From: Desulfobacteraceae bacterium
Lineage (GTDB): Bacteria; Desulfobacterota; Desulfobacteria; Desulfobacterales; RPRI01
Assembly (NCBI GenBank): GCA_011391695.1
Contig: JAABQB010000030.1
Span: 1-35,126 of the forward strand
Direction of reading: 5' to 3'
Length of the DNA stretch: 35,126 nucleotides
Within the stretch, counting starts at the first letter, position 1, and the number at the start of each line of letters is the position of its first letter. The notes below the pieces were generated by a model. It ran no database searches, had not been told where the DNA came from, and worked only from the letters and a program-made list of their open reading frames with translations. The position numbers and the translations under genes were made by a program. Shown piece after piece: positions 1 through 25,639 of this stretch.

Positions 1-2475
1 GATGTGGAAGCAATTGTTCTTTGCTGTGGAACAGATTTTTTCAATCCGGCTGATAAAAAAAATACCTGCGGTTATCACACGCTTCCAAACGTCATAACGG
101 GCATTGAATTCGAAAGGATAGTGAGCGGCACCGGACCCTGCGGCGGACAACTGGTGCGTCCTTCGGATGGAAAACGGATCGAAAAGATTGCTTGGTTCCA
201 GTGCGTGGGATCACGCGATTTGCAGAACAATGCCGATTTCTGCTCCAATATCTGCTGCATGTACGCCATCAAGGAGGCTCTTCTGGCAAAAAGCGGGACA
301 AACGGCGAAGCCGAAACAGTCCTTTTTTATATGGATATGCGCACATTTGGAAAATCATTTCAAAGATACAGGGACAAGGCACAGGGAGAATACGGCGTCC
401 GTTTTGAGAATGCGCGGGTCCATTCGGTCGTTCCTGAAGACGGAACCGGAAATCTTCTTGTCAGATACGTAGATACCTGCGGGAAGATTCATGAAGAATG
501 CTTCGGCATGATCGTGCTGGCAACAGGGCAAAGGCCGGCACAGGGAACCGGGGAACTGGCCGGCATAACGGGAATTTCCCTCAATCCGTGGGGATTCGCC
601 GAAACCGCTCCGTTTTCATTAACTGAGACATCCAGGCCTGGAATTGTTATAGGCGGTTCGTTTTCGGGACAAAAAGATATAAGCGAATCGGTTATCCAGG
701 CATCTGCCGCAGCAACCTGTGCATCAAGAGCTATTATTGCATCCGGAAAAGGCCCGATGCCGGAATCGCCTCCGGAAACGTTTTCACCTGAACTCCTGCG
801 GGAACCGCCGCGTGTGTTGGCAGTGGTCTGTACCTGCGGCAAATCGATCACGGCGTTCACCGATGAAAACAAGCTCTCCGCAAGACTAAAGATCGACCCG
901 GAGGTCGACCAAGTTATTTTTTCCGAGCGGATCTGTACTGCGGACGGATGGAATGAACTTGCCGGACAGATCAGAAAGTACAAGCCGAACCGTCTTCTGA
1001 TAGGCGCCTGCCTTCCGTACATGTACGGCCGAAAACTTAAAGAATTGGGAAAAGAGACCGGACTTAACGCTTCTCTTGCTGAAATAACTGATATCCGGAC
1101 TCCGGCAATCCGGTTTTCAGGAGAAAACCCGGGAGAGAATAAGGTTGCTGTTATCATAGAAAGCCTCCTCAGGATGGGTCTTGCTAAGCTTAAACAGGCG
1201 GAACCTTCAACAGCCCCCTCTTTGCCTGTGACACGTAACTGCCTTGTAGTCGGCGGCGGAATTGCAGGCATGACGGCGGCGCTGGCCATTGCGGATTCAG
1301 GGTCCAGAGTCGATCTTATCGAACACTCTGAAAATCTGGGCGGAAATCTCAAATGGATTACGGAAACGCTCGAAGGTTTTTCAACTCAAACCTTTTTAAA
1401 CGATACTATTCAAAGGATCGAAAAAAATCCTGGGATAGAGGTACACAAAAGTTCCAGCGTCCTGGCCTCTTTCGGAGAAGCAGGACATTTTATGACCACT
1501 GTAGAAAACAGCAAAAAAGAGATCCGGACAATAGAACACGGGGCGATAATTCTGGCTACCGGAGGAAAGGAAACGGAAATCACCGCGTACGGCCATGGAA
1601 CAAGCGGAGCGATTGTCACACAGAAGGAATTTGAACAAAGGATAACGGCCCGTTCGCTTGACCCTTTGACGCTCTCTTCGGTCGTCATGATTCAGTGCGC
1701 CGGGACTCGTGAAGAGCCGAAAAACTACTGCAGCCGCATCTGCTGCGCCGTTTCAATCAAGCAGGCTCTGTTTTTGAAAAAACAGAATCCTGAAATCGCA
1801 GTTTACGTGCTTTACCGTGACATGATGACATACGGTTTCACCGAAACCTACTACACGCAGGCAAGAAAGGCGGGGGTCATTTTTATCCGTTACACAAAAG
1901 ACCGCAAACCCGAAGTTCTGGTTTCCGGTCCGGAACCAAAGGTAAAGTGTTTCGAGCCGACTCTTGGAGAGGATGTCGAAATCACGGCAGACCTGGTTAT
2001 TCTTGCCGCAGGCGTGGTTCCTGAACTTCCCGCCGGTCTTGCTATGGCCTTCGGTGCATCATGCGATACGGACGGCTTTTTTCTGGAGGCTGAATCGAAA
2101 TGGCGTCCTGTCGATTCCATTAAAGAAGGGATTTTTGCCTGCGGCCTTGCGCATTCTCCCAGGACTATTGCAGAATCGGTTGCGACTGCGCAAGCGGCGG
2201 CCCAGCGTGCGATCCGCATTCTTTCAAGAAACAAACTGCCTTCGGGAAAAGTAACGGCTATGGTCCGTCACAGCATTTGCAGTCTGTGCGAGCAGTGTAT
2301 AGAAGCCTGCCCCTACGGCGCGAGAAGTTTTGATACGGAAAATGAAAAAATCCTGGTTAATCCCGCAATGTGCCAGGGATGCGGAACATGCGCCACTGTT
2401 TGTCCGAACAAGGCCTCCGTGATTGAAGGCTTTTCGACCCGGCAGATGCTCGAAGTCATAGACGCGGCGCTATGA
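1..2475 (+). CDS. HdrA-like flavoprotein with duplicated modules (5' partial)
   Basis: FAD/iron-sulfur electron-transfer protein of the heterodisulfide reductase A family, which handles electron bifurcation or transfer between ferredoxin, NAD(P)H and disulfide or sulfur partners in the cytoplasm. The frame is open from base 1, so the start lies outside the window; about 824 residues are visible. Two HdrA-type modules follow each other. The first has a QCVGSRD motif and a CSNICC cluster motif (bases about 200-260). The second opens with a dinucleotide-binding VVGGGIAGM motif (about 1246-1272) and has QCAGTRE with CSRICC (about 1690-1750). Two classical 4Fe-4S motifs of the CxxCxxCxxxCP type close the protein (about 2278-2415). 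Two modules in one chain recall the large HdrA/HdrL proteins of sulfate reducers. The partner hdrB/C or mvhD genes are not downstream, so the electron partner is unknown. Confidence 0.85.
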   Translation, partial: DVEAIVLCCGTDFFNPADKKNTCGYHTLPNVITGIEFERIVSGTGPCGGQLVRPSDGKRIEKIAWFQCVGSRDLQNNADFCSNICCMYAIKEALLAKSGTNGEAETVLFYMDMRTFGKSFQRYRDKAQGEYGVRFENARVHSVVPEDGTGNLLVRYVDTCGKIHEECFGMIVLATGQRPAQGTGELAGITGISLNPWGFAETAPFSLTETSRPGIVIGGSFSGQKDISESVIQASAAATCASRAIIASGKGPMPESPPETFSPELLREPPRVLAVVCTCGKSITAFTDENKLSARLKIDPEVDQVIFSERICTADGWNELAGQIRKYKPNRLLIGACLPYMYGRKLKELGKETGLNASLAEITDIRTPAIRFSGENPGENKVAVIIESLLRMGLAKLKQAEPSTAPSLPVTRNCLVVGGGIAGMTAALAIADSGSRVDLIEHSENLGGNLKWITETLEGFSTQTFLNDTIQRIEKNPGIEVHKSSSVLASFGEAGHFMTTVENSKKEIRTIEHGAIILATGGKETEITAYGHGTSGAIVTQKEFEQRITARSLDPLTLSSVVMIQCAGTREEPKNYCSRICCAVSIKQALFLKKQNPEIAVYVLYRDMMTYGFTETYYTQARKAGVIFIRYTKDRKPEVLVSGPEPKVKCFEPTLGEDVEITADLVILAAGVVPELPAGLAMAFGASCDTDGFFLEAESKWRPVDSIKEGIFACGLAHSPRTIAESVATAQAAAQRAIRILSRNKLPSGKVTAMVRHSICSLCEQCIEACPYGARSFDTENEKILVNPAMCQGCGTCATVCPNKASVIEGFSTRQMLEVIDAAL

Positions 2476-2584: not shown

Positions 2585-4858
2585 ATGTTCAAGCGACTAT
2601 ATCATTTTCGCCACAGCATTGTCCTGAAGCTGACTGTGACGGTGGGACTAACTCTTCTTGTCTCCATCTCAGTCTGGGCGTATTTCAACATCCGGTCCCA
2701 GAAAACAAAAATGATGGATAATTTTATTGCCGGAACAAACCGTCTTAGCGCCACAATAAAACTCGGCACCCATTATTCCATGATGTTAAACTCCCGCCAT
2801 GAGATCAATGAAATAATCAAAAATATATCGAAGCTGAAGGAAATAGAAAACATCCGCATTTATAACAAGTCGGGAGAAATCAAATTCTCAAACCGTCCTG
2901 CCGAGCTTGATATTGCCACTAATATAAAGGCGGAGGCCTGCGATATCTGCCACCGTTCCAAACCTCCGCTCGATAATCTTGATATTTCAGAGAGGACAAG
3001 AATTTTTTATTCGCCGAAAGGATACAGGATGCTCGGCATTATCGATCCGATTTACAACGAACCGGGTTGTTCCGCCGATGCATGCCATGTCCATCCAAAG
3101 AACAAAAAGATACTTGGCGCACTGGATGTTGTGATCTCGCTGAAAGAGACCGACAGGGCAATTTTTTCGATTGAAAAAGAGATGACTATTCTTGCGTTAT
3201 TTGTCTTTTTTATAACCTCTGCCATTATTTTCCTTTTCGTTTTGAAATTTGTTAATGAACCCATCAGAAAACTCATTGACGGAACACGCCGGATAGCTGG
3301 CGGCAATTATTCCGGAAAAGTTGAAATTGACCAGGATGATGAAATGGGCCAGCTTGCAAACGCCGTTAACAGTATGGGACAGAAGATCGGTGAAAAGCAG
3401 GCGGACCTTAATGCTCAGAGGGATGAATATCAGACCCTGTTTGAAAACGTGCCGTGCCTTATCACGGTTCAGGACAGGAATTTCAGACTTTTGAGGTATA
3501 ATCATGTCTTTGCCAAAAGCTTCAACCCCCGACCGGGTGATTTTTGTTTTCATGCATACAAGGGAAGAAGCAAAAAATGCCCGATATGCCCGGTTGAAAA
3601 GACATTTGAAGATGGATTATCTCATTTTGGAGAGGAATCCGGTCCCGATAGAGATGGAACAATTGCCCACTGGCTGTTCACAACCTCTCCCATTCTGAAT
3701 GAAAAAGGCGAAATCGTCGCCGCGATGGAAATAAGCCTGAATATTACGGAAAGAAAACGCCTCGAGGAAGAGCTTACAAAATCCGAAATAAAATATCATG
3801 CCATATTCAACAACATTCCAAACCCGGTATTTGTGCTGAAACAGGATACGCTTTTTATTCTCGACTGCAACGACAGCATAAAAGGAGTATATGGATTCGA
3901 TAAAGATGAAATCATTAACACTCCTTTTTTAAACCTTTTCCTGGAAAAAGAGAGGACATCCGTTGAGGCTAAATTAAGGAATTCATCAGTCATTACACAG
4001 GTTAAACAGCTCTCCAAAAACGGAGGTATAATTTTCGTCAATATCCGCATTTCTCCATCCGAATATCCCGGGGAAAAAGTTCTTCTTGTAACCACAAGCG
4101 ACATAACGAAGCGTCTGGAAGCCGAACAACTCTTGATTCAGGCAAGCAAAATGACGACCCTGGGGGAGATGGCATCAGGTGTTGCGCATGAACTGAATCA
4201 GCCTCTTTCGGTCATTAAAACAGCGAGCAGCTTCATAATCAGGAAGACAAACCAGAATGAAAAGATTGAGGATCAGATTATGTCCACAATGGTGAGCAAG
4301 ATTGATGCAAGTGTGGACCGGGCAAGTAAAATAATCAACCACATGAGGCTCTTTGCCCGCAAATCAGACATGGAACTTGAAAAGGTTAATGTAAATGAAA
4401 TTCTGAAAAACGCTTTTGAAATCTTTAGCCAGCAGCTTAAATTAAGAGATATCGAAGTTATCTGGGACACGGAAGAGAATCTCCCCGAAATAAAAGCCGA
4501 TCCGAGCCGGCTGGAACAGGTCTTTATCAATCTTCTGATTAATGCGCGGGATGCTATTGAAGATTTATATCCGCCCGGACAGGATATGAAAGGAGATAAA
4601 ATAATCAATTTAAAAACCCGTTCAGCCGATGGGGTCGTCATAACTGAAGTCTGCGACACCGGTATCGGAATGCCTGAAACAATTCTCGACAGGATATTCG
4701 AACCGTTTTTCACAACAAAGGAGGTCGGGAAAGGAACCGGACTGGGATTGTCGATCAGTTACGGAATCATAAAGGATTGCGGCGGAAACATCAGCGTCAA
4801 ATCAGAGCCTGGAAAAGGAGCGTGTTTTATCATGCAGTTTCCTGTGGCAGCTGAGTGA
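2585..4858 (+). CDS. Membrane PAS sensor histidine kinase with heme-c-like motifs
   Basis: Transmembrane two-component kinase, 757 residues. A first membrane helix (about residues 12-31) and a second (about 200-222) enclose a roughly 170-residue extracytoplasmic sensor. That sensor carries a CxxCH motif (C119, C122, H123) and a CxxxxCH motif (C162, C167, H168), which suggests covalent heme c and redox or ligand sensing. A HAMP linker follows (about 220-275), then two PAS domains (about 280-395 and 400-515). The first PAS holds a Cys-rich KKCPIC stretch. The transmitter has phospho-acceptor H535 in VAHELNQP, an N box (NLLINARDA), DTGIGM and GTGLGLS. It ends ten bases before a receiver-kinase gene, so the pair is probably cotranscribed. 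Heme attachment is inferred from motifs only; the kinase assignment is secure. Confidence 0.9.
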
Positions 4859-4868
4859 GAGAGGTTAT

Positions 4869-6044
4869 ATGGCTTTGGATTTCGAAGTTATGAAATATCC
4901 CGGATCCGGAAAATTAAATAAAACGATTCTGCTGGTAGACGATGAGGCGGATATCCGTGATGTATTGGGAATAACCTTATCTGATTTCGGCTATCAGATA
5001 ATCGCCGCAGATAACGGCGAAAAAGCCTTTAGTGTCTTTTGCGAACTGAATCCTCCTATTATTCTTACGGACATCAAGATGCCCGGTATGGACGGAATTA
5101 CCCTTCTGCAGAAGATCAAGTCCATGAATCCCGAAGCGGAAGTCATCATGATTACAGGTCACGGTGATATGGAGCTCGCTATCAGAAGTCTCAAGTACGA
5201 AGCATCCGGATTTATCACGAAACCTATCAATGTTGATTCGCTGGAAGTGGCATTGAAAAGGGCCTGCGATAAAATTCTCATGCGGGAAAAATTAAGGGAA
5301 TATACTGAAAATCTCGAACGCCTTATCAAGGAAAAATCCGAACTTCAGGACAATCTCTCTGCGCTGGGTCTGATGTTGGGCACGATATCTCACAGCATCA
5401 AGGGACTTTTAACGGGTCTCGACGGCGGAATGTATCTGGTCGATTCAGGATTTACGAAGGAAAACCTTGAAATAACCGCTGAAGGCTGGGCAGTCGTAAA
5501 GCAGATGGTCGGGCGCATCAGAAAATTGATATTAGACATTCTGTTCTATTCAAAGGACAGGGAAATGAGTCTCGAAAAGGTTGATGTATGCGCTTTCGCC
5601 AAAGAAGCGGCAATGGTTATCGAATCCAAGATACTTAACACTCAGATTGAATTTGTAAAAGATTTTGATCCGTCCGCCGGATCATTTGAAATCGACCCGC
5701 CGGCCTTTAATTCTGCGCTTATCAACATTCTTGAAAATGCCGTGGATGCCTGTATCCGGGATATATCCAAACCATCACATCGGATTCTCTTTTGCGCCAG
5801 GCAGGATAATGCCCAGACCGTTTTCGAAATTTCAGACAACGGCACCGGAATGGACCAGGAGACTATAGATAAGCTTTTTACGCTCTTTTTCTCGACGAAA
5901 GGAAAAGAGGGAACAGGGTTCGGACTTTTTATTGCCGACAGGATAATCCGAAAGCACGGCGGATCCATTGAAGTAAAATCAAAATCAGGCCACGGAACCC
6001 TATTCCGGATAAAGACCCCCAGAATCTCTTCCGGCTCAGCATAA
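4869..6044 (+). CDS. Receiver domain-histidine kinase (response regulator kinase)
   Basis: Soluble signalling protein of 391 residues with the reverse order of a usual hybrid kinase. An N-terminal receiver has the acidic pair D24/D25, phospho-acceptor D68 in LTDIKMPG, and FITKP. A coiled linker follows, then a kinase core with a likely phospho-acceptor H175 in ISHSIKG and an ATPase domain (NILENAVDA, DNGTGM, GTGFGLF). It has no DNA-binding output domain and no membrane segment. It lies ten bases after the membrane kinase, so it is the likely phosphorylation target of that kinase and would relay phosphate onward. The final output regulator is not adjacent. Confidence 0.88.
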   Translation: MALDFEVMKYPGSGKLNKTILLVDDEADIRDVLGITLSDFGYQIIAADNGEKAFSVFCELNPPIILTDIKMPGMDGITLLQKIKSMNPEAEVIMITGHGDMELAIRSLKYEASGFITKPINVDSLEVALKRACDKILMREKLREYTENLERLIKEKSELQDNLSALGLMLGTISHSIKGLLTGLDGGMYLVDSGFTKENLEITAEGWAVVKQMVGRIRKLILDILFYSKDREMSLEKVDVCAFAKEAAMVIESKILNTQIEFVKDFDPSAGSFEIDPPAFNSALINILENAVDACIRDISKPSHRILFCARQDNAQTVFEISDNGTGMDQETIDKLFTLFFSTKGKEGTGFGLFIADRIIRKHGGSIEVKSKSGHGTLFRIKTPRISSGSA

Positions 6045-16367: not shown

Positions 16368-16793
16368 TTACCGCACATTGTAAGCTTTCTTCCACTGGGT
16401 GCGGCGAAGTTCCAGAAGGTTTGAGAGCGCCAGATAAAGAGCCCCGACCGCAAGCTCGGCGCAATGAAAATGATCTTTGGGGAGAGTTTCAAGATATTCG
16501 GCAACCGCCTCCGGTGTGATTTCCCATGCCTTATCGATCGTTTTGTTTTCGGTCATTAAAACAATGGCGTTGGCGCATGCAGCAGTGTTCATGCATCCGT
16601 TTATATAATAAGAAGCCGTTTCTATGATGTTATCTCTTGCTTTGAGAAATATTTCAACGGTATCTCCGCAATCGCCGGTTTTTTTACCATAACCATCAGG
16701 GTGTTCGATAATTTCCTGTTTATCCTTACGAAACGCCATTTCAAGATATTTGAGAGAATGGCTTTGCCAGAAGTCTGATACTTCTTCATCCAT
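16368..16793 (-). CDS. IscU/NifU-N-like iron-sulfur scaffold protein
   Basis: Scaffold for iron-sulfur cluster assembly, about 141 residues from the chosen start. The three cluster-ligand cysteines of IscU are recognisable: C42 in GDCGD, C67 in NGCMNTAACAN, and C111 in HFHCAELA. HPDGYGK stands where IscU has NPRNVG. The start at 16793 is favoured by GGAG eight bases upstream; a longer frame to 16862 lacks a ribosome site and overlaps the upstream gene. It lies within the NifX/ATPase cluster and is a divergent IscU without iscS beside it, so it may serve a dedicated cofactor rather than general assembly. Confidence 0.82.
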   Translation of the reverse strand: MDEEVSDFWQSHSLKYLEMAFRKDKQEIIEHPDGYGKKTGDCGDTVEIFLKARDNIIETASYYINGCMNTAACANAIVLMTENKTIDKAWEITPEAVAEYLETLPKDHFHCAELAVGALYLALSNLLELRRTQWKKAYNVR

Positions 16794-16825
16794 TTTAAAA
16801 TCTCCGTTCATCCGGTCAATGTTTT

Positions 16826-17074
16826 TCAGCTCTTTCCGCAGCAGCTTCCGGGACCGGCACATCCGGCATGCTCAGGCGAAGAGCCGCAGCAGGCTGTATC
16901 TTTCGGTCCCGGGTAGCGTGAAGACTGCTGCCCCGAATATTGAGAATGAGCAGAAAGCAGTTTTTTCAGGTTTCGGCTGCCACAATGATTACACGAAGGA
17001 ACATCCCCGACAGTGACAAGCAAAATCTCTGATGGCTTACCACAGTCCTGACATAAATAATCGAACAGCGGCAT
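16826..17074 (-). CDS. FmdB-family zinc-ribbon protein
   Basis: Small zinc-ribbon protein of 82 residues. The FmdB pattern is clear: MPLFDYLCQDCG with C8 and C11, then SCNHCGS with C28 and C31. A Cys/Gly/Pro-rich tail follows (CCGSSPEHAGCAGPGSCC) and adds six more cysteines, which could bind metal. FmdB proteins are putative regulators associated with amide or formamide metabolism in some bacteria; that role is not indicated here. It lies 32 bases upstream of the scaffold gene and shares its orientation with the whole cluster. Confidence 0.82.
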   Translation of the reverse strand: MPLFDYLCQDCGKPSEILLVTVGDVPSCNHCGSRNLKKLLSAHSQYSGQQSSRYPGPKDTACCGSSPEHAGCAGPGSCCGKS

Positions 17075-17110
17075 AAGTTACTCCTTTTTTATTGAAACCG
17101 TCAAAGGGTT

Positions 17111-17473
17111 TCACAACAAGGCTGTCAAAGTATTCAACAACAGTTCGGCATTCTTTTCGTCGGGATTGAGCGGCAGTTGGGCCATTATTCCAAGTCCCTC
17201 CGAGGCTTCATGGAACTCTTCCGGCGCAAGGCCGGTCACAAGGACAAGATTGGCCATAGCGTTTACCCGGATCATATCTTTGGCAATATCCATGCACGAT
17301 TGCCCTTCCACCTTCTCATCGATTATGATCAGGTCAATCGAACCGGTTGCGGCAGCTTGGGCGGCTGTTACGGAATCCGCCCATATAATTTCATTTGCGT
17401 TCTTATCGCTCAATCCCTCGGCCAGCCTTGAAAAATTGTCGGCATTTTGGGTAATAATCAAAAATCTTTTCAA
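17111..17473 (-). CDS. Degenerate stand-alone receiver domain
   Basis: Single CheY-like domain of 120 residues. The phospho-acceptor position is kept (D52 in DLIIIDEKVEG) and VLVTG supplies the conserved Thr. The N-terminal acidic pair is replaced (LIITQNADN), and the conserved Lys near the end is missing (MAQLPLNP instead of a KP motif). It may therefore act as a phosphorylation-independent protein interaction module. No kinase is adjacent. It sits between two clustered metal-cofactor genes, 12 bases after the NifX-like gene. Confidence 0.7.
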   Translation of the reverse strand: MKRFLIITQNADNFSRLAEGLSDKNANEIIWADSVTAAQAAATGSIDLIIIDEKVEGQSCMDIAKDMIRVNAMANLVLVTGLAPEEFHEASEGLGIMAQLPLNPDEKNAELLLNTLTALL

Positions 17474-17485
17474 CTTTAACCTCTC

Positions 17486-17872
17486 TTAATGTGCACCGCC
17501 GCCGCAGGTATGTTCATTAGAAAATTGCGGTAGTTTGCCGTCAATCAGCGCTTGCACGGCATTCCCAACCGTCTGAAAGTCTCCGCCGAAATAGACCTCA
17601 ATACCAACCTGATTAAATCCCATGAGAGGTCGAAACCCCATGCCGCCGGCAATCAACTTACTGGCGCCTTTTCCGGCCAGATACTCTACAGGCGCCATGC
17701 ATCCGCCCTGTTGATGAGGAATATTTGGGATCACATCAATTTTTTTTATTTCGTTATTTTCCACGGTAACCAGCGTATATAGGTCACAGTGGCCAAAATG
17801 CGCGCCCAATGGAGCGTCAAGCCCACCCGGTGCGGAAGAAGGAACTGCTATCAATGTATTTAATGTGTTCAA
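17486..17872 (-). CDS. NifX/Orp-family cofactor-binding protein (first copy)
   Basis: Protein of 128 residues of the dinitrogenase iron-molybdenum cofactor biosynthesis family, which includes NifX, NafY and the Mo-Cu orange protein Orp. Visible marks: LGAHFGHCDLYTLV near residues 22-35, HQQGGCMAPVEYLAG, and LIAGGMGFRPLMGF. A His/Cys-rich end follows (HTCGGGAH). Translation appears to start at a TTG (17872), with AAGGAG six bases upstream. The family binds metal-sulfur clusters non-covalently. One of four family members in this cluster. Confidence 0.88.
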   Translation of the reverse strand: MNTLNTLIAVPSSAPGGLDAPLGAHFGHCDLYTLVTVENNEIKKIDVIPNIPHQQGGCMAPVEYLAGKGASKLIAGGMGFRPLMGFNQVGIEVYFGGDFQTVGNAVQALIDGKLPQFSNEHTCGGGAH

Positions 17873-17970
17873 TGTGTTCTCCTTTCAAAAACTACGCGTT
17901 TAATTTGTTGTTATATCATCCTGGTCCAGGCGAGGCTTCCTCCCGCCTTTTCCACCGGCAATGGCCATTA

Positions 17971-18339
17971 TCATGCGCCATGCGCCATTCTGTTGGGCGC
18001 TTTGGCCATATCAACCTCACCGGCTTTAAATTTTTCAATTGCCTGGCGCACCGTAATATTTTCCAGGTTCTGTCCTATTTCAATTCCGGCTGCAGAAAGC
18101 GACTGAAATGCTTTGGGGCCGACATACCCCGTCAGAACCACCTTGGCGCCTGACCTGAAAACATTTTCGGCCGCCTGAATGCCGGCTCCCTGGGACATAA
18201 CCTGAGATGATCCGTTATCAACATAGCTGAATTCAAGTGTGTCCGGATCAACGATTAAAAATCCTGCGGCACGGCCAAACCTGGGATCAACATTGGAATC
18301 CAGACTGGGTCCTTCGCAGCTTACAGCAATTTTTTCCAT
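17971..18339 (-). CDS. NifX/Orp-family cofactor-binding protein (second copy)
   Basis: About 122 residues from the ATG at 18339, which has AGGAG six bases upstream; an upstream in-frame start lacks support. Typical pattern: IAVSCEGPSLDSNVDPRFGRA at the N-terminus (shown in parts: LDSNVDPRFGRA), then GAGIQAAENVF, VVLTGYVGPKAFQSLSAAGI, and EIGQNL. No cysteine ligands in the C-terminus. Closely similar at the start to the 22225-22824 protein, so these two are paralogs. Likely carries or receives a metal-sulfur cofactor. Confidence 0.88.
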   Translation of the reverse strand: MEKIAVSCEGPSLDSNVDPRFGRAAGFLIVDPDTLEFSYVDNGSSQVMSQGAGIQAAENVFRSGAKVVLTGYVGPKAFQSLSAAGIEIGQNLENITVRQAIEKFKAGEVDMAKAPNRMAHGA

Positions 18340-18419
18340 AATACACTCCTTTGTTTGTTCCAAATCAAGTTTTTTTTATAATCATAGACACTTTTCAATA
18401 TTTGCGTATAGAGACATCC

Positions 18420-19376
18420 TCAGGCAGTAAAGGTCAGCTTTGTCCCCGACATGTTGAGGATGAACTGCCCTGGCATGGTGTTCTCCATGTACTGGATCGC
18501 TTTCCGTCCGGTGCAGTGCGTCGGAATAACATGAGTGGGGTTGAGTTCCCTGAGCTCTTCCGTCGTCCGGCCGATTATGGGCTCAAAGAACGGCCCTGAG
18601 AGATGAAACCCGCCCATGACGACATGAATCTTTTCGATGCCCGTCACGGCCATAGCGTAGCGGACCGTGTTGACAATCCCTGAGTGGGCACACCCGGACA
18701 AAACGACCAGCCCCTTATCCCTGAGGTTCATAACCACCGCCGTATCGTCCTCGATCGGATCCCATTTCTCAACCGTCCCCTCCTGAAAGAAGGCTACAGG
18801 AAATCCCTTCTCGAAATCAGTAACCCGCTCGATCTCCCCAAGAAAAACAGCATCGCCGTCCAGGAGGGTTTCGGGATCCTTAGATTCAATTACCTTAACC
18901 CCCATTTGTTCCAATCCTTTCCTGGTGATCGCCGGGAAATCGAACCTGAGTCCCTCTCCGTACTTGAGGTAACGGGGGCTTTTGAATATTCCCGGATGGA
19001 CAAATAACGGAAGCGCCTTTTTGCCGATCATTTCGACCAGCGCTGCAAAACCTCCTACATGATCGTTGTGACCATGCGAGAGAGCGAGGGCTTCCACCTG
19101 ACCCATGTCAACACCCAATGCCCGTGCATTGAAGGCTGCGCCTCCCTCAGAGTAGCCGAAATCGAAAAGCAGCGTATGGCTCTTTTCTCCGACAGTCGTC
19201 TTGACAAGGGCGGAAAACCCATGCTCCGCCAGGATTGAATTTCTGATCTGTCCTTCTTTGATCGCCACCGCTCTCTGGACAATGGCGTTATTGTCCATCA
19301 TGGTGATATCAATGGTGTTGTCCTGCAGAGTCAGAATTTCCACTTTGTCCAATGGGTTCAACTCTATCTTTTTCAC
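18420..19376 (-). CDS. Metallo-beta-lactamase-fold hydrolase
   Basis: Protein of 318 residues with the metal-binding motif SHGHNDHVGG (H101, H103, D105, H106). Further His positions occur in SGCAHSGIVN, GGFHLSG and THCTG. It resembles the MBL-fold family related to methanopterin ribofuranosyl-aminobenzene phosphate synthase. Members of that family are often near MinD-type ATPases with ferredoxin domains in anaerobes (recollection). It probably binds two metal ions; the substrate is unknown. A repeat-rich 142-base gap separates it from the upstream ATPase. Confidence 0.85.
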   Translation of the reverse strand: MKKIELNPLDKVEILTLQDNTIDITMMDNNAIVQRAVAIKEGQIRNSILAEHGFSALVKTTVGEKSHTLLFDFGYSEGGAAFNARALGVDMGQVEALALSHGHNDHVGGFAALVEMIGKKALPLFVHPGIFKSPRYLKYGEGLRFDFPAITRKGLEQMGVKVIESKDPETLLDGDAVFLGEIERVTDFEKGFPVAFFQEGTVEKWDPIEDDTAVVMNLRDKGLVVLSGCAHSGIVNTVRYAMAVTGIEKIHVVMGGFHLSGPFFEPIIGRTTEELRELNPTHVIPTHCTGRKAIQYMENTMPGQFILNMSGTKLTFTA

Positions 19377-19518
19377 GATGTCTATCTCCTTTCTTGCATT
19401 AAGATTATATTACTACTCAGGTTATTTAGACTATAGGCTGAAGGCTGAAGACCTTCAGGCTGTAGACTGTTAGTCTATAGGTTTTAGGGATAGATCTTAT
19501 AGCCTAATAGCCTATAGC
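19377..19518. repeat. Repeat-rich gap (copy of dispersed family 2)
   Basis: The segment 19419-19473 reads GGTTATTTAGACTATAGGCTGAAGG and so on (shown only in part), made of imperfect GGCTGAAG/CTTCAGGC units. The following 50 bases are built from TATAGCCTA-like units. An inverted relative is at 28531-28562. It separates the MBL gene from the ATPase gene within the cluster. Confidence 0.6.
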
Positions 19519-20391
19519 TTATAGTCTATTCAACTGAGCAGTTACTATCTTTTCCCATATATCTTTGACCGCTCTGGATCCCTCGGAATGATCATCAAAT
19601 TCAAAAATCGTCTTGCCCTGAACCATAGCTTTCGTGAAGACCGGATCAAAAGGAATGCGGCCCATTACGGCTACATTTCTTTCTCTTGCAAAAGCCTCAA
19701 TGGCCTGTCCCATATCAGGGTTAAGGTCAAACTTGTTGACACAGACCATGGCAGGCACCTTGAAAAAGGCGGCCAGTTCGGCCACCCTCTCCATGTCGTG
19801 CTTACCCGAAACCGTGGGTTCAGCCACGATGAGTGTCGCCGTGGCCCCGCCAAGTGAAGCGATTACCGGGCAACCGATCCCCGGAGGGCCGTCCGTCAAA
19901 AGGAGATCCAGGTTTTTCTTTTCGGCAAGTTTTTTACCTTCCTTCCGGATAAGGCTTACAAGCTTACCTGAATTTTCCTCGGCAATGCCAAGCCGTGCAT
20001 GGGCCATGGGGCCGAAACGGGTCTCAGAAAGATACCACTCTCCGCAGGTTTTCAAGGGAAACTCGATTGCCTTTTCAGGGCAGAAATAATGGCAGACCCC
20101 ACACCCTTCACATACAATCGGATCCACAATAAAATCTTCATTAATGGCATTCCACCTGCACAATTCCCGGCACAGGCCGCATTGTGTGCACATATCCCGT
20201 ATAATTACGGCTTCATGACCCGACTCAAAATCATGGCGCTCCTCAACACGAGGATCCATAATGAGATGAAGGTCTGCTGCGTCCACATCTGCGTCACAGA
20301 GCGCCTTCCCTTTTGCCAGAGAAGCGAAAGCGGCAAGCAGGCTCGTTTTACCTGTTCCACCCTTTCCGCTTATAACGACCAGTTCTTTCAT
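19519..20391 (-). CDS. MinD-type ATPase with inserted ferredoxin domain (copy 1)
   Basis: P-loop ATPase of about 290 residues from the ATG at 20391. Deviant Walker A SGKGGTGKTS (residues 8-17). Around residues 58-115 an inserted ferredoxin carries two CxxCxxCxxxC motifs (CTQCGLCRELC and CEGCGVCHYFCP), for two 4Fe-4S clusters. DGPPGIGCPVIAS is the Walker-B-like block. This is the COG1149 type found in anaerobes, and its nearest known counterparts are the ATPases encoded with the Orp protein in Desulfovibrio. It probably uses ATP and electrons to load or reduce a metal cofactor (inference). Confidence 0.88.
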   Translation of the reverse strand: MKELVVISGKGGTGKTSLLAAFASLAKGKALCDADVDAADLHLIMDPRVEERHDFESGHEAVIIRDMCTQCGLCRELCRWNAINEDFIVDPIVCEGCGVCHYFCPEKAIEFPLKTCGEWYLSETRFGPMAHARLGIAEENSGKLVSLIRKEGKKLAEKKNLDLLLTDGPPGIGCPVIASLGGATATLIVAEPTVSGKHDMERVAELAAFFKVPAMVCVNKFDLNPDMGQAIEAFARERNVAVMGRIPFDPVFTKAMVQGKTIFEFDDHSEGSRAVKDIWEKIVTAQLNRL

Positions 20392-20439
20392 AAAACTTTT
20401 CCTTCCCTTTTCTTTCATGTACAGGCACGTTTATGATCC

Positions 20440-21288
20440 TCAATGATTTTTATGAAAACTTATTTCTTCAATCTGATGGTATAATTTAAGGAATTTTTCC
20501 TTCCACTCGGGCATTACTTCCACAATCATCTCTCCTCGGGAGTAAGCCTCTGCGATTTTCCTGTCAAAGGGAATCTCCATCAAAATTGGTAGATTTTCCT
20601 TTTCCGCATAGATCTTAACCTTATCATCCCCCATGTCCGAACGATTGATAACCAGACCGCATGGAATACCAAGGATGTTCACGGCCCCGACAGCAAGCTT
20701 AAGATCATTCAGACCGAAAGGAGTAGGCTCGGTCACTAAGAGAACGAAGTCTGCCCCTTTCATGGAAGCGATGACCGGGCACGACGTCCCGGGTGGAGCA
20801 TCAATAATGGTCAACATATCAGGCCGGGCGTATTCCCGCACTTTTCTGATCAGAGGCGGAGACATGGCCTCGCCGACCCTTAATTTCCCATGAACAAATT
20901 CCAGTCCGTTCCTTCTGCCCCGTTCAATTACACCAAGTTCACGACCCGTCTCGGTGATAGCCTTTTCAGGGCAAACCTCCATGCATCCTCCGCAACTGTG
21001 GCACATTTCAGGGAAGGGCAGCACGGTTTTACCAATTACCACAATTGCCTTGAACTGGCATATTTCCCCGCATTTTCCGCATAGGTTACATTTCTCCATA
21101 TCCACCTCTGGAACAGGAGTGGTGATGGTCTTAACCTCGTTAATCACAGGATGTATGAAGAGGTAGGCGTTGGGTTCTTCCACATCGCAGTCCAGCAGCT
21201 GAACATCACCTCCAAGAGATACGGCCATGTTGGTGGCGACAGTCGTCTTTCCTGTGCCGCCTTTTCCGCTCGCTATGCTGATAATCAT
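20440..21288 (-). CDS. MinD-type ATPase with inserted ferredoxin domain (copy 2)
   Basis: P-loop ATPase of 282 residues, paralog of the 19519-20391 product. Walker A is ASGKGGTGKTTVATN, and the next strand ends LLDCDVEEPN. Two 4Fe-4S motifs lie at about residues 66-112 (CNLCGKCGEIC and CHSCGGCMEVCP). DAPPGTSCPVIAS follows. Its start overlaps the stop of the Mrp-like gene by four bases (ATGA) and it ends about 50 bases before copy 1, so the three ATPases are translationally linked and may form hetero-oligomers. Confidence 0.9.
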   Translation of the reverse strand: MIISIASGKGGTGKTTVATNMAVSLGGDVQLLDCDVEEPNAYLFIHPVINEVKTITTPVPEVDMEKCNLCGKCGEICQFKAIVVIGKTVLPFPEMCHSCGGCMEVCPEKAITETGRELGVIERGRRNGLEFVHGKLRVGEAMSPPLIRKVREYARPDMLTIIDAPPGTSCPVIASMKGADFVLLVTEPTPFGLNDLKLAVGAVNILGIPCGLVINRSDMGDDKVKIYAEKENLPILMEIPFDRKIAEAYSRGEMIVEVMPEWKEKFLKLYHQIEEISFHKNH

Positions 21289-22133
21289 GCTTTACTCCTT
21301 GTCTCTGTCAATTTTACAATCTCATCCACCATTTTGTTGAATTCCTGAGTGATCAAGAGCTTGTTGTTATCCAGAAGACTCATATCCCCTGTGTCGCCGT
21401 TAGATACCACCCCCGGTTCAAAGGGCAGAGTTGCCAAAAGTTTCAGGCCCTCCTTTTTTGCCGTGAGCATGCCGCCGTGAGTCTTGAATATTTCGATCAT
21501 TTTCCCACAGTGAGGACATTTAAGACCGCTCATGTTCTCAACAAGTCCTAAGATTTTCATATTAACCTGGCGGCAAAAATTGATGGACTTTCTAACATCG
21601 GCCAATGAAATCTCCTGAGGCGTAGTTACAATCAAGGCCATTGCATCTGGTATGGTCTGTGCCACGGTCAGGGGCTCATCACCCGTGCCGGGAGGAGAGT
21701 CGATGATCATGTAATCAAGATCCGACCACTCAATATCTGATATGAACTGTCTTATGACGCCGATCTTCAGCGGCCCCCTCCAGATCATGGCTGCATCCTT
21801 ATTTTCTCCCATAAGCGGTTCAACGGAAATCACTTCCATATTTGGAATGTACTTTACCGCGTGGGCCTTTCCCTCCTTAACGGCCGGTCCGACACTTCCT
21901 TTAAGACCAAGCATGCGAGGGATACTGGGACCGTGAAGATCCACATCCATAAGACCCACTTTGTAGCCCCTCTTCGCCAAAGCCACCGAGAGATAGGCCG
22001 AAATACTGCTCTTGCCCACGCCCCCTTTTCCGCTCATGACCAATATCTTGTTTTTTATCCGGCCCAATCTTTCCTTTATCTCTACATCCTGCTGTTGATG
22101 CTGGTCCTGCTGACTACCCTTTCCTTTTGCCAT
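21285..22133 (-). CDS. Mrp/NBP35-type ATPase
   Basis: Iron-sulfur carrier ATPase of the Mrp (ApbC/NBP35) family, 282 residues. Walker A is VMSGKGGVGKSS. MDVDLHGPSIPRMLGL and SPPGTGDEPLTV are family blocks, and the CPHC motif near residue 200 is the bridging cluster ligand pair. The first 20 residues are Gln/Lys-rich, which is common in Mrp relatives of anaerobes. It lacks the C-terminal NifX/Orp fusion that I recall for the Mrp protein of the Desulfovibrio Orp operon; here separate NifX-type proteins are encoded instead. Confidence 0.9.
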   Translation of the reverse strand: MAKGKGSQQDQHQQQDVEIKERLGRIKNKILVMSGKGGVGKSSISAYLSVALAKRGYKVGLMDVDLHGPSIPRMLGLKGSVGPAVKEGKAHAVKYIPNMEVISVEPLMGENKDAAMIWRGPLKIGVIRQFISDIEWSDLDYMIIDSPPGTGDEPLTVAQTIPDAMALIVTTPQEISLADVRKSINFCRQVNMKILGLVENMSGLKCPHCGKMIEIFKTHGGMLTAKKEGLKLLATLPFEPGVVSNGDTGDMSLLDNNKLLITQEFNKMVDEIVKLTETRSKA

Positions 22134-22224
22134 AAGACTCTAACCTCCGATTATTGCTCATAAATCAAAATAACGACATATTCCTTTTGTTATATTTTTA
22201 TATTCTCACACAAAGACGCGGTTT

Positions 22225-22824
22225 CTATTTTTTTTCAAAGGCATTGATTTTTGATTCAATCTGTTCAATCTGCCTGCGCATTTCATCTGCTTGATTTTTA
22301 AGGTTCTTCAGCTCTTCCTCTTTTGATAACTGGTTGTCCCCGGGCTGACCCGAACTTTTCGTTCCTAAGCCGCCAATTCCACGACCCATTCCTCTGCCTC
22401 CACCCATACCCTTGCCCATCCCCATGCCTCTACCCATACCGCGGCCCATACCTCCTCCGCCTCCCATACCGTAATGATCGGCAACATTGGGTTTGCTTGT
22501 AGATTTAATATCTCCCCTCATGTACTTTTCTATAGACTCTCTGACCGTCCCGGACTGCCCTAAATAAATCTCAATGCCGGCGGCAGAAAGGGCCTGAACC
22601 GCATTGGGGCCGCAATTGCCGGTTATTACAAGTACCGCACCCTTTGATGCCACAAACTGTGCGGATTGAATGCCGGCGCCTCCACCCAGGGCAATGCTCT
22701 CATTATCAAAGGCCTCAAAACTCATATCATCTGTCTCAACAATTATAAAATATGCACACCTGCCAAAACGCGGATCTATGTTTGAATCCAAATCTTTTCC
22801 ATTACTGCTTACAGCAATTTTCAT
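22225..22824 (-). CDS. NifX/Orp-family protein with Gly/Met-rich linker and coiled coil
   Basis: Protein of 199 residues in three parts. Residues 1-110 are a NifX/Orp domain (LDSNIDPRFGRC, GAGIQSAQFV, VLVITGNCGPNAVQALSAAGI). Residues about 118-155 are low-complexity Gly/Met/Arg repeats of the GRGMGMGKGMGG kind. Residues about 165-199 form a predicted coiled coil with the pattern EELKNLKNQADEMRRQIEQI. The last two parts resemble DUF5320-type small proteins, one of which is encoded nearby. The Met-rich linker could bind Cu(I) (inference). Third NifX copy of the cluster. Confidence 0.85.
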   Translation of the reverse strand: MKIAVSSNGKDLDSNIDPRFGRCAYFIIVETDDMSFEAFDNESIALGGGAGIQSAQFVASKGAVLVITGNCGPNAVQALSAAGIEIYLGQSGTVRESIEKYMRGDIKSTSKPNVADHYGMGGGGGMGRGMGRGMGMGKGMGGGRGMGRGIGGLGTKSSGQPGDNQLSKEEELKNLKNQADEMRRQIEQIESKINAFEKK

Positions 22825-22848
22825 CTTTATTTTCTCCTATGTTTACAT

Positions 22849-23805
22849 TCATATGCGGGAATAGCTTTTCTCGATCTGGTTTTTAGCTGCGTAATACACA
22901 GAGGAATTTATAAATTCCGTGTGGATTTGACCGGTACGCATCAGATTGCCGAGGTATTTTGACACCTCGTTGAGATGCATGCCGAATATTTCCACGATCT
23001 GGTTCGCCGTACACGGCCGTCGTTTCAACATGGAAAATATTTCTTCCTGGCTAACCTGCACATGGTCTCCATCTTTTGTCTCAAATTCCGTAATAATCTC
23101 AGCAGCAGGACAAAACAGATTGATTAACTCCTCCATGTGTTCTTTGGACAGGGGCGCAGCAAAATCCTCTGCCGGTGGACGTACAGCTGTATTGAGTTGG
23201 ATACGATCCGGAATTATCTCCTTTGCAAAGGCAGCGATTTTTCGAACATTCGCAGGAATCGAATTTATCCCTCCCACCAAAAAAACCTCCAGCCACAACT
23301 GCCCTTTGAATTGAGAACGGAAAGCCTTTTGTCCTTCAATCAACTGATCAAACTGCAATTGCCGGTGGGGACGATTAACCCAGCCGTAAGAAGCCTGATC
23401 CCAGGCGCTCAGGGAGATTTTAACTATGTTGGCACAGGCAGCCGCTTCCCGTACTTCCTGAAATTGCAGCATTGTGCCGTTGGTCAGGAGAACAACAGGG
23501 ATTATGCTTTTTTTACGTACATATTCCAGAATTTCTCCAAAGCGGGAATGAAGCGTTGGCTCTCCGGAACCGGCGAGAGTAATATAGTCGGCATGACCGT
23601 CTCTTTTCAGCCACTCATCAAGTTCTGCAATTACCGCATCCGTTGCTACATATTCTTCCCGGGTGACCGTCTTATTCGTGGTCCGCCCCAACTGGCAGAA
23701 AACACAATCAAGACTGCATGTCTTGTAAGGGGTCAGGTCAACGCCCAGCGACCGTCCGAACCGACGGGAAGGCACAGGGCCAAACAGGTATTTTTTATCT
23801 TCCAT
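22849..23805 (-). CDS. Radical SAM protein (COG0731-like)
   Basis: Radical SAM enzyme of 318 residues. The 4Fe-4S ligands are C30, C34 and C37 in CSLDCVFC. FGPVPSRRFGRSLGVDL, LAGSGEPTLH and LTNGT are the family blocks of the MoaA-like subgroup found beside NifX-type genes in anaerobes. The C-terminal 70 residues look like a winged helix (EEIFSMLKRRPCTANQIVEI and so on). It is encoded three bases after the DUF5320 gene. The role may be cofactor maturation or modification of a partner protein; the substrate is unknown. Confidence 0.88.
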   Translation of the reverse strand: MEDKKYLFGPVPSRRFGRSLGVDLTPYKTCSLDCVFCQLGRTTNKTVTREEYVATDAVIAELDEWLKRDGHADYITLAGSGEPTLHSRFGEILEYVRKKSIIPVVLLTNGTMLQFQEVREAAACANIVKISLSAWDQASYGWVNRPHRQLQFDQLIEGQKAFRSQFKGQLWLEVFLVGGINSIPANVRKIAAFAKEIIPDRIQLNTAVRPPAEDFAAPLSKEHMEELINLFCPAAEIITEFETKDGDHVQVSQEEIFSMLKRRPCTANQIVEIFGMHLNEVSKYLGNLMRTGQIHTEFINSSVYYAAKNQIEKSYSRI

Positions 23806-23808
23806 CGA

Positions 23809-24012
23809 TCAATCTTCCTTGCCAACACTTTTAACATTTACTTTTTTACATCTTGGTCTTTTAGGTAAAATAGCCACCGGCTTACCGGATAGACCAACGA
23901 ATCCTGTCTTAGGCTCATCAGGGATGCGAGGAATTTTCAGCAGGCAATAACCACCACCCCTGCCGGTCATGGGGCCTAGTCCCTTCGGTCCTGTTCCGTC
24001 ATGTCCTGGCAT
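23809..24012 (-). CDS. DUF5320-like small protein
   Basis: Short protein of about 67 residues. The N-terminus MPGHDGTGPKGLGPMTGRG is the diagnostic DUF5320 motif, followed by GYCLLKIP and a basic tail with a CKKVNVK segment. The ATG at 24012 begins the conserved motif; an upstream ATG at 24018 adds two residues. Function unknown. Members commonly lie in clusters with NifX and MinD-type ATPases. Confidence 0.8.
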   Translation of the reverse strand: MPGHDGTGPKGLGPMTGRGGGYCLLKIPRIPDEPKTGFVGLSGKPVAILPKRPRCKKVNVKSVGKED

Positions 24013-24077
24013 AAACATAATCTCCTTTATTCGTTTGTAAACTTTGTACTAACAAATTACTAAAGAATGTTAGTTTC

Positions 24078-24443
24078 CTAAGCAAAAATATTTTCCGGTT
24101 TGTATGGATGCGCACCTTCAACAACCTCCACCCCTGCCTTGGCCTTTATTTTGTTGATCAGCGTTTCTTTATATGGACAATGATCGATTATGCAGGGCCC
24201 GATGTGTATCCTGGTAACTTTTTCCTGCATCGGCTGATTCCATAATTTTACCTGCGCCAGGCGCGTAACGATAGTTGCACCGGGGCAGTCTCCACAATTT
24301 AGAAGCCCGATCAGCTCGGCATCATGAGCGGCATAACGCTTGAACTCACCCTCCCTCCGGTTAAAACCGACCATGCAGCGCGAACAACCGATACAGACAT
24401 CATCCATGGCTTTTTTGCAGCCGACTATAAGAATTTTTTCCAT
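24078..24443 (-). CDS. CGGC-domain protein
   Basis: Protein of 121 residues with a cysteine pattern typical of CGGC-domain proteins: VGCKKAMDDVCIGCSRCMVGF at the N-terminus (five Cys within 24 residues; shown as VGCKK and CIGCSRC), LLNCGDCPGA in the centre, then IGPCIIDHCPYKE. The central motif reads CGDC rather than CGGC. Several Cys pairs could bind metal or a cluster. Function is not established for this family. It is preceded by a 377-base gap, so it may have its own promoter. Confidence 0.8.
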   Translation of the reverse strand: MEKILIVGCKKAMDDVCIGCSRCMVGFNRREGEFKRYAAHDAELIGLLNCGDCPGATIVTRLAQVKLWNQPMQEKVTRIHIGPCIIDHCPYKETLINKIKAKAGVEVVEGAHPYKPENIFA

Positions 24444-24820
24444 GTAATAACTCCTTTTTTATAAGCTGAAGAAACCGTAAAAGATTTGATATGCCCCGGC
24501 CACAAATCACGGCAGGCGCCCATAAAGGGCTCTTCACTATTTTATATCTATGACAATAAGTGAGCGCACCGAACTACGGACCGGTGCGCTCACCGTAAGA
24601 TTGTTTCCGGCCAGCAAGCGATGCTGCCAAACACAGACAGGCAAAGCGGCACATGCAGGTTGGAGATTATTCCGCTGCGGTTTCAGTTTCGATCTCGGAT
24701 CAGGTCTGAGAGCAAGGCGCAAGCCGATGAAAAAGCGCAGCATACACTTAGAGTATGTGAGCATTTTGAAGAGGCTTGCAACACAGCTGTCAGGCCTCAG
24801 ACGGGGTTTTGAAATGGCTT
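24444..24820. repeat. Structured non-coding gap in the cluster
   Basis: No credible gene. It has a perfect 12-base stem GTGAGCGCACCG/CGGTGCGCTCAC (24560-24571 and 24582-24593) with a ten-base loop, and a second imperfect hairpin at 24720-24777 around CATAC/GTATG with AAGCC/GGCTT at its ends. The latter looks like a dispersed element I recall from related genomes; only one copy is in this window. Confidence 0.55.
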
Positions 24821-25453
24821 CTATTCTCTTGTCATCGCAGTGCCGCACTTTGAACACTGCTTCTGCAGGCACGGTACTCCGCGTTCATGAGGTTCACGAT
24901 TTCCGCATTTCGGGCACAGGCAGGTGCCTCCAGCGCCTCCTGCAAGTGGTCCGCTTAAGCGTCCGCCCTGGCCTTGTCCGCCCTGACCCCGGCCTTGTCC
25001 GCCCTGACCCTGGCCTTGTCCTCCGCCTTGCCTTTTTCCCCCGCCTTTTCTTCCATTCATCAGATGTATCTCCTTGTTAATGTTAATATCCGTCATTGCC
25101 GGTAGTTGGGCATAGCGCCTGCAGCAACCGGGCATTGCAAACTTCTCACTCTCAAGTTTGCCGTCAAGCCAGGCCTTGATAACCTTGCGCAGATCGCCTG
25201 CCACAAATGAAATTACACGAATTCCTGAGGCCATAACCATCGCGTGCAGCGGCCTCGATATAGCGCCGCAGACCAGCGTGCTGATGCCAAGCTCGACTAT
25301 ACGAAAGACCTTCTTAGCCGGCATGTCATTTGCCATGACCTCCTTTGTTTCGGCAATTATTCGACCCGATTCAGTCTCGACAACATGAATCTGCCGGGCG
25401 ATGTCAAACACAGGTGCGATCCGGTCATCCCAGTATGCAAATGCTGTTTTCAT
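24821..25453 (-). CDS. NifX/Orp-family protein with Gly/Gln linker and zinc ribbon
   Basis: Protein of 210 residues. Residues 1-115 form a NifX/Orp-like domain (TAFAYWDDRIAPVFDIA, ELGISTLVCGAISRPLHAMV). Residues about 133-170 are a Gly/Gln/Arg repeat of GQGGQGRGQGG type. The C-terminal 40 residues hold a zinc ribbon with CLCPKCG and CLQKQCSKCG. The first gene after the sigma-54 promoter, about 40 bases from it. Fourth NifX copy and the most divergent. The G/Q linker is encoded by tandem repeats at 24965-25030, which may vary in length between strains. Confidence 0.82.
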   Translation of the reverse strand: MKTAFAYWDDRIAPVFDIARQIHVVETESGRIIAETKEVMANDMPAKKVFRIVELGISTLVCGAISRPLHAMVMASGIRVISFVAGDLRKVIKAWLDGKLESEKFAMPGCCRRYAQLPAMTDININKEIHLMNGRKGGGKRQGGGQGQGQGGQGRGQGGQGQGGRLSGPLAGGAGGTCLCPKCGNREPHERGVPCLQKQCSKCGTAMTRE

Positions 25454-25491
25454 AATCTGAGTTCCTGTTCATCGTTCATGAATATAATGAT

Positions 25492-25508
25492 AGCAAGCAT
25501 CATGCCAT
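25492..25508 (-). promoter_or_regulatory. Sigma-54 promoter of the NifX/ATPase cluster
   Basis: On the minus strand, TGGCATGATGCTTGCT matches the consensus TGGCAC-N5-TTGCW, with the GG (-24) and GC (-12) pairs separated by exactly ten bases (25506-25505 and 25494-25493). It stands about 40 bases before the start of the NifX-type gene. Confidence 0.8.
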
Positions 25509-25586
25509 TTATCGGCATGTGTCATTAAAGTATTTAACAAATTGAAATTATGTGAGATAATATAATTTATGAAGAGATGGTGGCAA

Positions 25587-25616
25587 GTTATTGGAAAGCG
25601 ATAACGCTACTGTAAC
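25587..25616 (-). promoter_or_regulatory. Possible activator binding site (UAS)
   Basis: AGCG-ATAA-CGCT (25597-25608) lies inside GTTA-N22-TAAC arms, about 90 bases upstream of the sigma-54 promoter. That distance suits an upstream activator site for the adjacent sigma-54 regulator. Tentative. Confidence 0.35.
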
Positions 25617-25639
25617 TCATTTTGACAGGTGCAATACTG

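Follow-up and report, generated by a model that had tools for sequence, protein, structure and literature searches.

Sensor domains that bind c-type heme outside the membrane are a known class, and the closest described relatives of the sensor reported here belong to it. In Geobacter sulfurreducens, c-heme sensors occur with one or two CX2-4CH motifs; among them GSU0591 and GSU0599, known to us by description alone, carry two such motifs, and GSU0599 is annotated as a two-component protein (all from the accessible part of PMC8396549). GSU0582 and GSU0935 (PF21563, PF11845), like the sCache_heme or DUF3365-Tll0287 group, combine an extracytoplasmic Cache fold of WalK type with a single heme motif, and one-heme Cache sensors are described in PMC12889525, in whose accessible text the terms "diheme" and "CX4CH" occur zero times. 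Hybrid kinases of the REC-HK type consist of an N-terminal receiver and a kinase core and have no DNA-binding part. On the enzyme side, HdrA of the methanogen HdrABC-MvhAGD complex (5ODC) is a flavin adenine dinucleotide (FAD) module with an inserted ferredoxin domain, and Desulfobacterium autotrophicum HRM2 has a tandem HdrL-HdrA with HdrB and HdrC at its hdrL/hdrA4/hdrBC locus VIII (accessible part of PMC2702500). The stretch of DNA analysed here (the window), 35,126 nucleotides of a Desulfobacteraceae bacterium (GCA_011391695.1, contig JAABQB010000030.1), starts with the following three genes:

1..2475, forward strand: HdrA flavoprotein, C-terminal 824 residues (NCBIfam HdrA2, 4e-144, below the whole-protein cut-off)
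2585..4858, forward strand: sensor histidine kinase HK1, 757 residues (open reading frame list and Pfam; transmembrane segments by eye)
4869..6044, forward strand: receiver-histidine kinase RR-HK (HK2), 391 residues (open reading frame and Pfam; catalytic residues kept in 55 aligned rows)

The receiver-bearing HdrA that relatives have beside the kinases is more surprising than the sensor. In the window HdrA is truncated by the contig start, while in two genomes of the same genus (L050 and L051; handles in G, C, L and f are ours for genomes, contigs, loci and families) the full gene precedes the kinases. The L051 protein has 1147 residues with a receiver at 197-306 (Pfam E 3.5e-31), and its assignment to HdrA follows from the FAD module and the inserted and C-terminal 4Fe-4S domains, seen in the whole gene of L051 and, for the window, in the C-terminal part. 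Like the 5ODC protein it has an FAD module with an inserted ferredoxin domain (E 5e-84); unlike it, it gives no match to 5ODC ahead of residue 145, carries a second flavoprotein module behind and accommodates the receiver where 5ODC has an 8-residue linker, between residues 311 and 320. We take this site to be the point at which, in the published HdrA structure, the chain leaves the inserted ferredoxin domain. The five active-site residues of the receiver (D201, D202, D245, T273 and K295, L051 numbering) are present in all 40 readable genes of the order and in 8 of 10 further members of the phylum that were aligned. The order-level set comes from an HdrA query at E<=1e-70, which found 42 of 96 genomes. 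Without G092, whose match has no receiver part, these are 41, and as the HdrA of G003 is cut by its contig, 40 genes were read. In the literature within reach, which excluded most subscription papers, we found no report of a receiver inside HdrA; the accessible parts of PMC5109826 and PMC4046663 contain no mention of one, nor does that of PMC2702500 for the D. autotrophicum hdrL-hdrA4 pair, to which the likeness is by description, its Fig. 4 legend naming a response regulator and a histidine kinase without stating their locus. A literature search on receivers fused to oxidoreductases in general turned up nothing relevant.

Kinase pair and HdrA are co-inherited, as judged from gene order and joint occurrence. 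Among the 41 genomes of the order with a receiver-HdrA, 22 have a co-oriented diheme kinase no more than 3.2 kb downstream and one has it at 6.8 kb. The other surroundings are an orthologous kinase without the heme domain (4), kinase genes in opposite orientation on the same contig (3), another histidine kinase with a receiver (2), none of these (3; the gene of G062 is broken) and a contig that ends too early (6). Across 95 genomes diheme kinase and receiver-HdrA occur together in 36, the kinase only in 13, the receiver-HdrA only in 5 and neither in 41 (Fisher 4e-10); counted by family the same figures are 30, 10, 2 and 30 of 72 (p 2e-9), a count that removes kinship only in part. A tree of 74 kinases requires 8 changes of the label for HdrA linkage, against 20.3 with shuffled labels, and a marked set of 32 kinases on that tree comprises 26 linked, 3 unlinked and 3 undetermined ones. 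Linkage meant that an HdrA C-terminal part of at least 36% identity was present, either no more than 8 kb upstream of the kinase or, whatever the strand, no more than 14 kb away; a receiver was not part of the definition. Family f111 is an exception that fits the proposed link between the kinases and the HdrA receiver: the receiver is degenerate in G364 and G476 (DPDAH) and unrecognised by tblastn in G134, and the kinases near HdrA, where there are any, are dissimilar to this pair (26-27% identity). In the two degenerate receivers (L194, L195) the second acidic residue, the T and the K are gone.

The two kinase genes lie on a common strand with 10 bases between them. HK1 runs from a transmembrane segment through the diheme Cache domain and a second transmembrane segment to HAMP (220-268), PAS_4 (286-392), PAS_9 (413-509), HisKA (526-593) and HATPase_c (639-755), the ranges being those of Pfam; with HATPase_c and a HisKA that carries its histidine, it qualifies as a sensor histidine kinase. 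RR-HK has Response_reg at 20-129 and HATPase_c at 277-384, and no DNA-binding family scored above the Pfam cut-off, GapR_DNA-bd coming to E 0.16 and 12 bits where 22.6 are needed. Its phospho-accepting helix is missed by Pfam HisKA, although H175 is invariant, and with the D68 receiver and a kinase core with H175, N and G boxes it qualifies as a REC-HK hybrid. It differs from other such hybrids in this SHSIKG-type helix outside Pfam HisKA and in that it often partners a heme kinase. Across 55 rows, D24, D25, D68 and K118 are kept in 54, T96 in 53 and H175, N290 and D323 in 55. Within 500 bases of the diheme kinase, a matching receiver-first gene follows in 56 of 73 loci, with none in 12 and too short a contig in 5. 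The initial annotation's description of the partner as a receiver with its own kinase core and no DNA-binding domain is thus borne out. The residues and domain of interest are:

4187..4189, forward strand: HK1 phospho-accepting H535 (AHELNQP), 74/74 kinases
5070..5072, forward strand: RR-HK receiver phospho-acceptor D68, 54/55 rows
5391..5393, forward strand: RR-HK phospho-accepting H175 (SHSIKG), 55/55 rows
3440..3760, forward strand: cytoplasmic PAS_4 domain of HK1 with invariant C321, C332 and C335, 74/74 kinases, including 6 without the diheme domain

The PAS_4 cysteines form a C-x10-C-x2-C pattern (window 3545-3589). They are a possible second, cytoplasmic redox input, either as an iron-sulfur site or as a thiol switch.

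Ahead of HAMP, and between two hydrophobic segments identified by eye, HK1 carries the sensor domain with its two heme motifs:

2675..3199, forward strand: extracytoplasmic diheme single-Cache domain, about residues 31-205 (structure model, structural matches)
2780..2782, forward strand: M66, candidate axial ligand, aligned to GSU0935 Met60 (weak alignment); M in 66 of 68 diheme kinases
2939..2953, forward strand: heme motif 1, CDICH, residues 119-123; C, C and H in 73/73
3068..3088, forward strand: heme motif 2, CSADACH (CX4CH), residues 162-168; 73/73, weak profile alignment to 3b42
3092..3094, forward strand: H170, two residues past motif 2, 73/73

The initial annotation had read a CxxCH and a CxxxxCH motif in an extracytoplasmic domain, and both are confirmed. 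It had also made heme binding depend on conservation of the cysteines, and C119, C122, H123, C162, C167, H168 and H170 are invariant in 73/73 non-identical homologues; chance occurrence of the motifs was discarded on this count. Spacing in motif 2 varies among homologues, some having CX4CH and others CX3CH. The set derives from 82 loci, giving 79 open reading frames and 73 proteins. Left out were L119-L121, for which tblastn gave no match, the distant L117 and L118, each with a single CxxCH and <28% identity, and four duplicates of identical sequence. The structure prediction that the initial annotation had proposed as a check gave a single Cache fold (model m3a4a65d43b17; mean predicted local distance difference test score (pLDDT) 77, lowest near both motifs). 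Its best structural match is the WalK Cache domain (4ywz_B; Z 15.8, root-mean-square deviation 2.0 over 137 residues), and single Cache domains rank top. PAS identity of the outer domain was therefore rejected, the PAS domains being cytoplasmic. Thus, of the earlier view that such heme motifs are unusual in PAS kinases, the motifs themselves stand, but the domain that bears them is a Cache domain and c-heme sensors are a known class.

Pfam relates the domain to the Geobacter sensors below its cut-offs: a GSU0582-type sensor was the best match in 5/5 members tried, each below cut-off, and the window domain scores 23.5 bits against PF21563 (cut-off 27), PF11845 not being among its matches. 3B42 and 3B47 (GSU0582/GSU0935) are not among the 50 structural matches listed. 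In a weak profile alignment to GSU0935 (3b42, E 0.62) its heme motif lands on motif 2 and, taking GSU0935 His144 as chain residue 110, Met60 is chain residue 26 and aligns with M66; in both proteins, on this same weak alignment, the c-heme motif follows a strand with a PxxNE-like loop at its end. On this alignment motif 2 most likely corresponds to the known heme site, with motif 1 as an addition. HK1 thus appears to differ from GSU0582 and GSU0935 in having two motifs instead of one, with CX3-4CH in place of the canonical CXXCH at the shared site and its own CXXCH as an additional, earlier one. The window genome encodes two PF01578 cytochrome c assembly proteins. We infer that the Cache domain of HK1 holds two covalently bound c hemes and that HK1 senses the redox state of the periplasm. 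By its sequence, the sensor is a two-heme relative of the one-heme Cache sensors, two-motif sensors being already known in Geobacter.

Within the order, 53 of 96 genomes encode the sensor domain, the window genome among them (50 without the weak matches G049, G072 and G092). A cultured carrier, Desulfosarcina cetonica JCM 12296 (L045), has the kinase, a two-piece RR-HK match and, at its contig edge, the end of an HdrA. When 395 genomes sampled from the whole phylum were searched with a profile, 121 gave matches at E<=1e-8; both motifs are present in all of the 29 best-scoring phylum loci (L205-L233). In L213 and L214 the diheme domain sits on shorter proteins of 466-472 residues, and in L213 it is followed by what looks by eye like a GGDEF diguanylate cyclase sequence, a different output. 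At least 3 switches between having and lacking the heme domain are needed on the tree of 74 kinases. Six kinases without it still stand beside HdrA, four of them keeping the two hydrophobic segments and two keeping none; the segments that remain point to loss of the heme domain from these kinases. The link between kinase and HdrA, read from these gene neighbourhoods, outlasts the sensor domain.

Building on the domain layout, the invariant residues, the gene order, the co-inheritance and the intact receiver of the relatives, we propose a relay from the diheme Cache sensor through HK1 and RR-HK to the HdrA receiver that gates electron flow directly, and rate its chances at about even. The signal, the direction of phosphotransfer and the effect on HdrA would be as follows. 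The two c hemes would change ligation or redox state in response to the periplasmic redox state, and the change would travel via the transmembrane helices and HAMP to HK1, the PAS_4 cysteines being a possible second input. HK1 would phosphorylate the RR-HK receiver at D68 and so set the activity of the RR-HK core (H175), after which this core, or HK1 itself, would phosphorylate the HdrA receiver at D245. As the receiver is placed at the short linker of methanogen HdrA behind the ferredoxin domain, its phosphorylation would gate electron flow in the HdrA-HdrC-HdrB / HdrL-MvhD-FrhB-like complex. The fuller claim, that the periplasmic diheme Cache sensor directly controls the electron-bifurcating Hdr complex by phosphorylation of the receiver inserted in HdrA, acting at a hinge and not on transcription, is held more tentatively and falls a little below an even chance. 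The initial annotation had let the phosphorelay end at an unknown output; its kinase pair without a DNA-binding domain stands, but the HdrA receiver of the relatives is a strong candidate for that output.

Several observations weigh against the proposed relay. The receiver piece of the window genome's own HdrA was not found anywhere in the assembly, and since its place coincides with an assembly gap its presence there is deduced from the relatives; a structure model of HdrA with the receiver, based on four sequences, reached a mean pLDDT of 50 and was not used. In family f92 HdrA has no receiver (G115, G152 and G187, the contig of G187 ending there). In G152 the receiver-less HdrA is followed by a diheme kinase and a free receiver, in G115 by a kinase that lacks the heme domain and by two free receivers, and in both an RR-HK-type kinase is among the followers, fused to the diheme domain in G152. 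The HdrA relatives of G400 and G473 also lack the receiver, 13 genomes have a diheme kinase and no receiver-HdrA, and in G226, G030 and G054 the HdrA receiver is intact but without an adjacent kinase pair. G401 and G080 contain a further receiver match in the interval from HdrB to the diheme kinase. Many diheme kinases adjoin a receiver-kinase at other locations, so these kinases should have other targets too. As far as gene neighbourhoods can tell, an Hdr cluster can also be served by the sensor via free receivers, as in f92. The HdrA receiver as an obligatory partner of the sensor was rejected, the f92 sensor adjoining a receiver-less HdrA. In L266 of this family an RR-HK-type core (AHGIKN) stands behind a diheme Cache domain, and L265 and L266 both show free receivers with a receiver-less HdrA.

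The strongest rival to direct gating is transcriptional control, in which the kinase pair would act via free receivers or a sigma-54 regulator near the Hdr genes while another kinase serves the HdrA receiver. Free receivers do lie between HdrA and kinase in f92, other histidine kinase and receiver pairs follow HdrA in G079, G086 and G080, and contig C51 of the window genome has a sigma-54 activator and a 141-residue free receiver upstream of its Hdr genes. Yet the sigma-54 protein of C51 has no receiver domain in the 384 residues present, its start missing, and the interval from HdrA to the diheme kinase is free of receiver matches in 22/22 same-strand clusters. We consider this reading unlikely. 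Much the same standing is given to the view that the domain senses a gas (nitric oxide or carbon monoxide) and not redox potential, the relay being otherwise unchanged. The related GSU0582 and GSU0935 bind both gases (accessible part of PMC8396549), and sCache_heme signalling domains act as nitric oxide sensors (accessible part of PMC12889525); against this, a pair of hemes accompanied by a further conserved His and Met would point to six-coordinate sites and to electron transfer, and for GSU0582 and GSU0935 PMC8396549, in its accessible part, prefers a redox-linked ligand change. That the HdrA receiver is a structural or docking module, unphosphorylated in the cell, would agree with its degeneration in f111 and absence from f92 while the rest of HdrA is retained, but is less probable still, as all five active-site residues are kept throughout the 40 genes of the main group. 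Finally, CX3-4CH differs from the canonical c-heme motif, but a zinc or iron-sulfur site in place of heme is very improbable given a location outside the membrane, an exact CxxCH in motif 1, the cytochrome c assembly genes, the match of motif 2 to the GSU0935 heme-motif position (weak alignment) and the counting of CX2-4CH as a heme signature in Geobacter sensors (accessible part of PMC8396549).

Contig C51 ends within the same HdrA gene (94% identical N-terminus), and the window contig starts just past the receiver; the gap between them, about 0.64 kb as estimated from L051, takes in the ferredoxin-receiver part of HdrA, and G000:C51:15000-24754 (L130) and window 1-2475 look adjacent. The window most likely starts in the middle of an Hdr operon with C51 as its neighbour. 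The C51 cluster comprises the sigma-54 activator, the free receiver, an HdrC/HdrD-type-domain protein with membrane-like segments (by eye), HdrL, MvhD, an FrhB-like protein and the start of HdrA; in many relatives HdrC and HdrB lie between HdrA and the kinases. Nine proteins scanned in window 16368-27031 include NifU_N, three Nitro_FeMo-Co proteins, a radical SAM protein, a CGGC protein, a PAS-sigma-54 regulator and two ATPases of ParA/Mrp type, of which one has 4Fe-4S motifs. Near the receiver-less Hdr cluster of L265, genes resembling the PAS-sigma-54, Mrp and CGGC ones were recognised by eye. An aldehyde ferredoxin oxidoreductase (AFOR_N, AFOR_C) is encoded at window 30893-32629.

To our knowledge, little is known of post-translational regulation of flavin-based electron bifurcation in anaerobes. 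With this locus the c-heme sensors gain a Cache member that has two heme motifs and relaxed heme spacing, and a receiver in HdrA beside a cognate-looking kinase pair would make post-translational control of bifurcation testable with purified parts. The outside redox state may here be signalled straight to an enzyme rather than to DNA which, if true, would link it to an electron switch in sulfate-reducing bacteria and related organisms.

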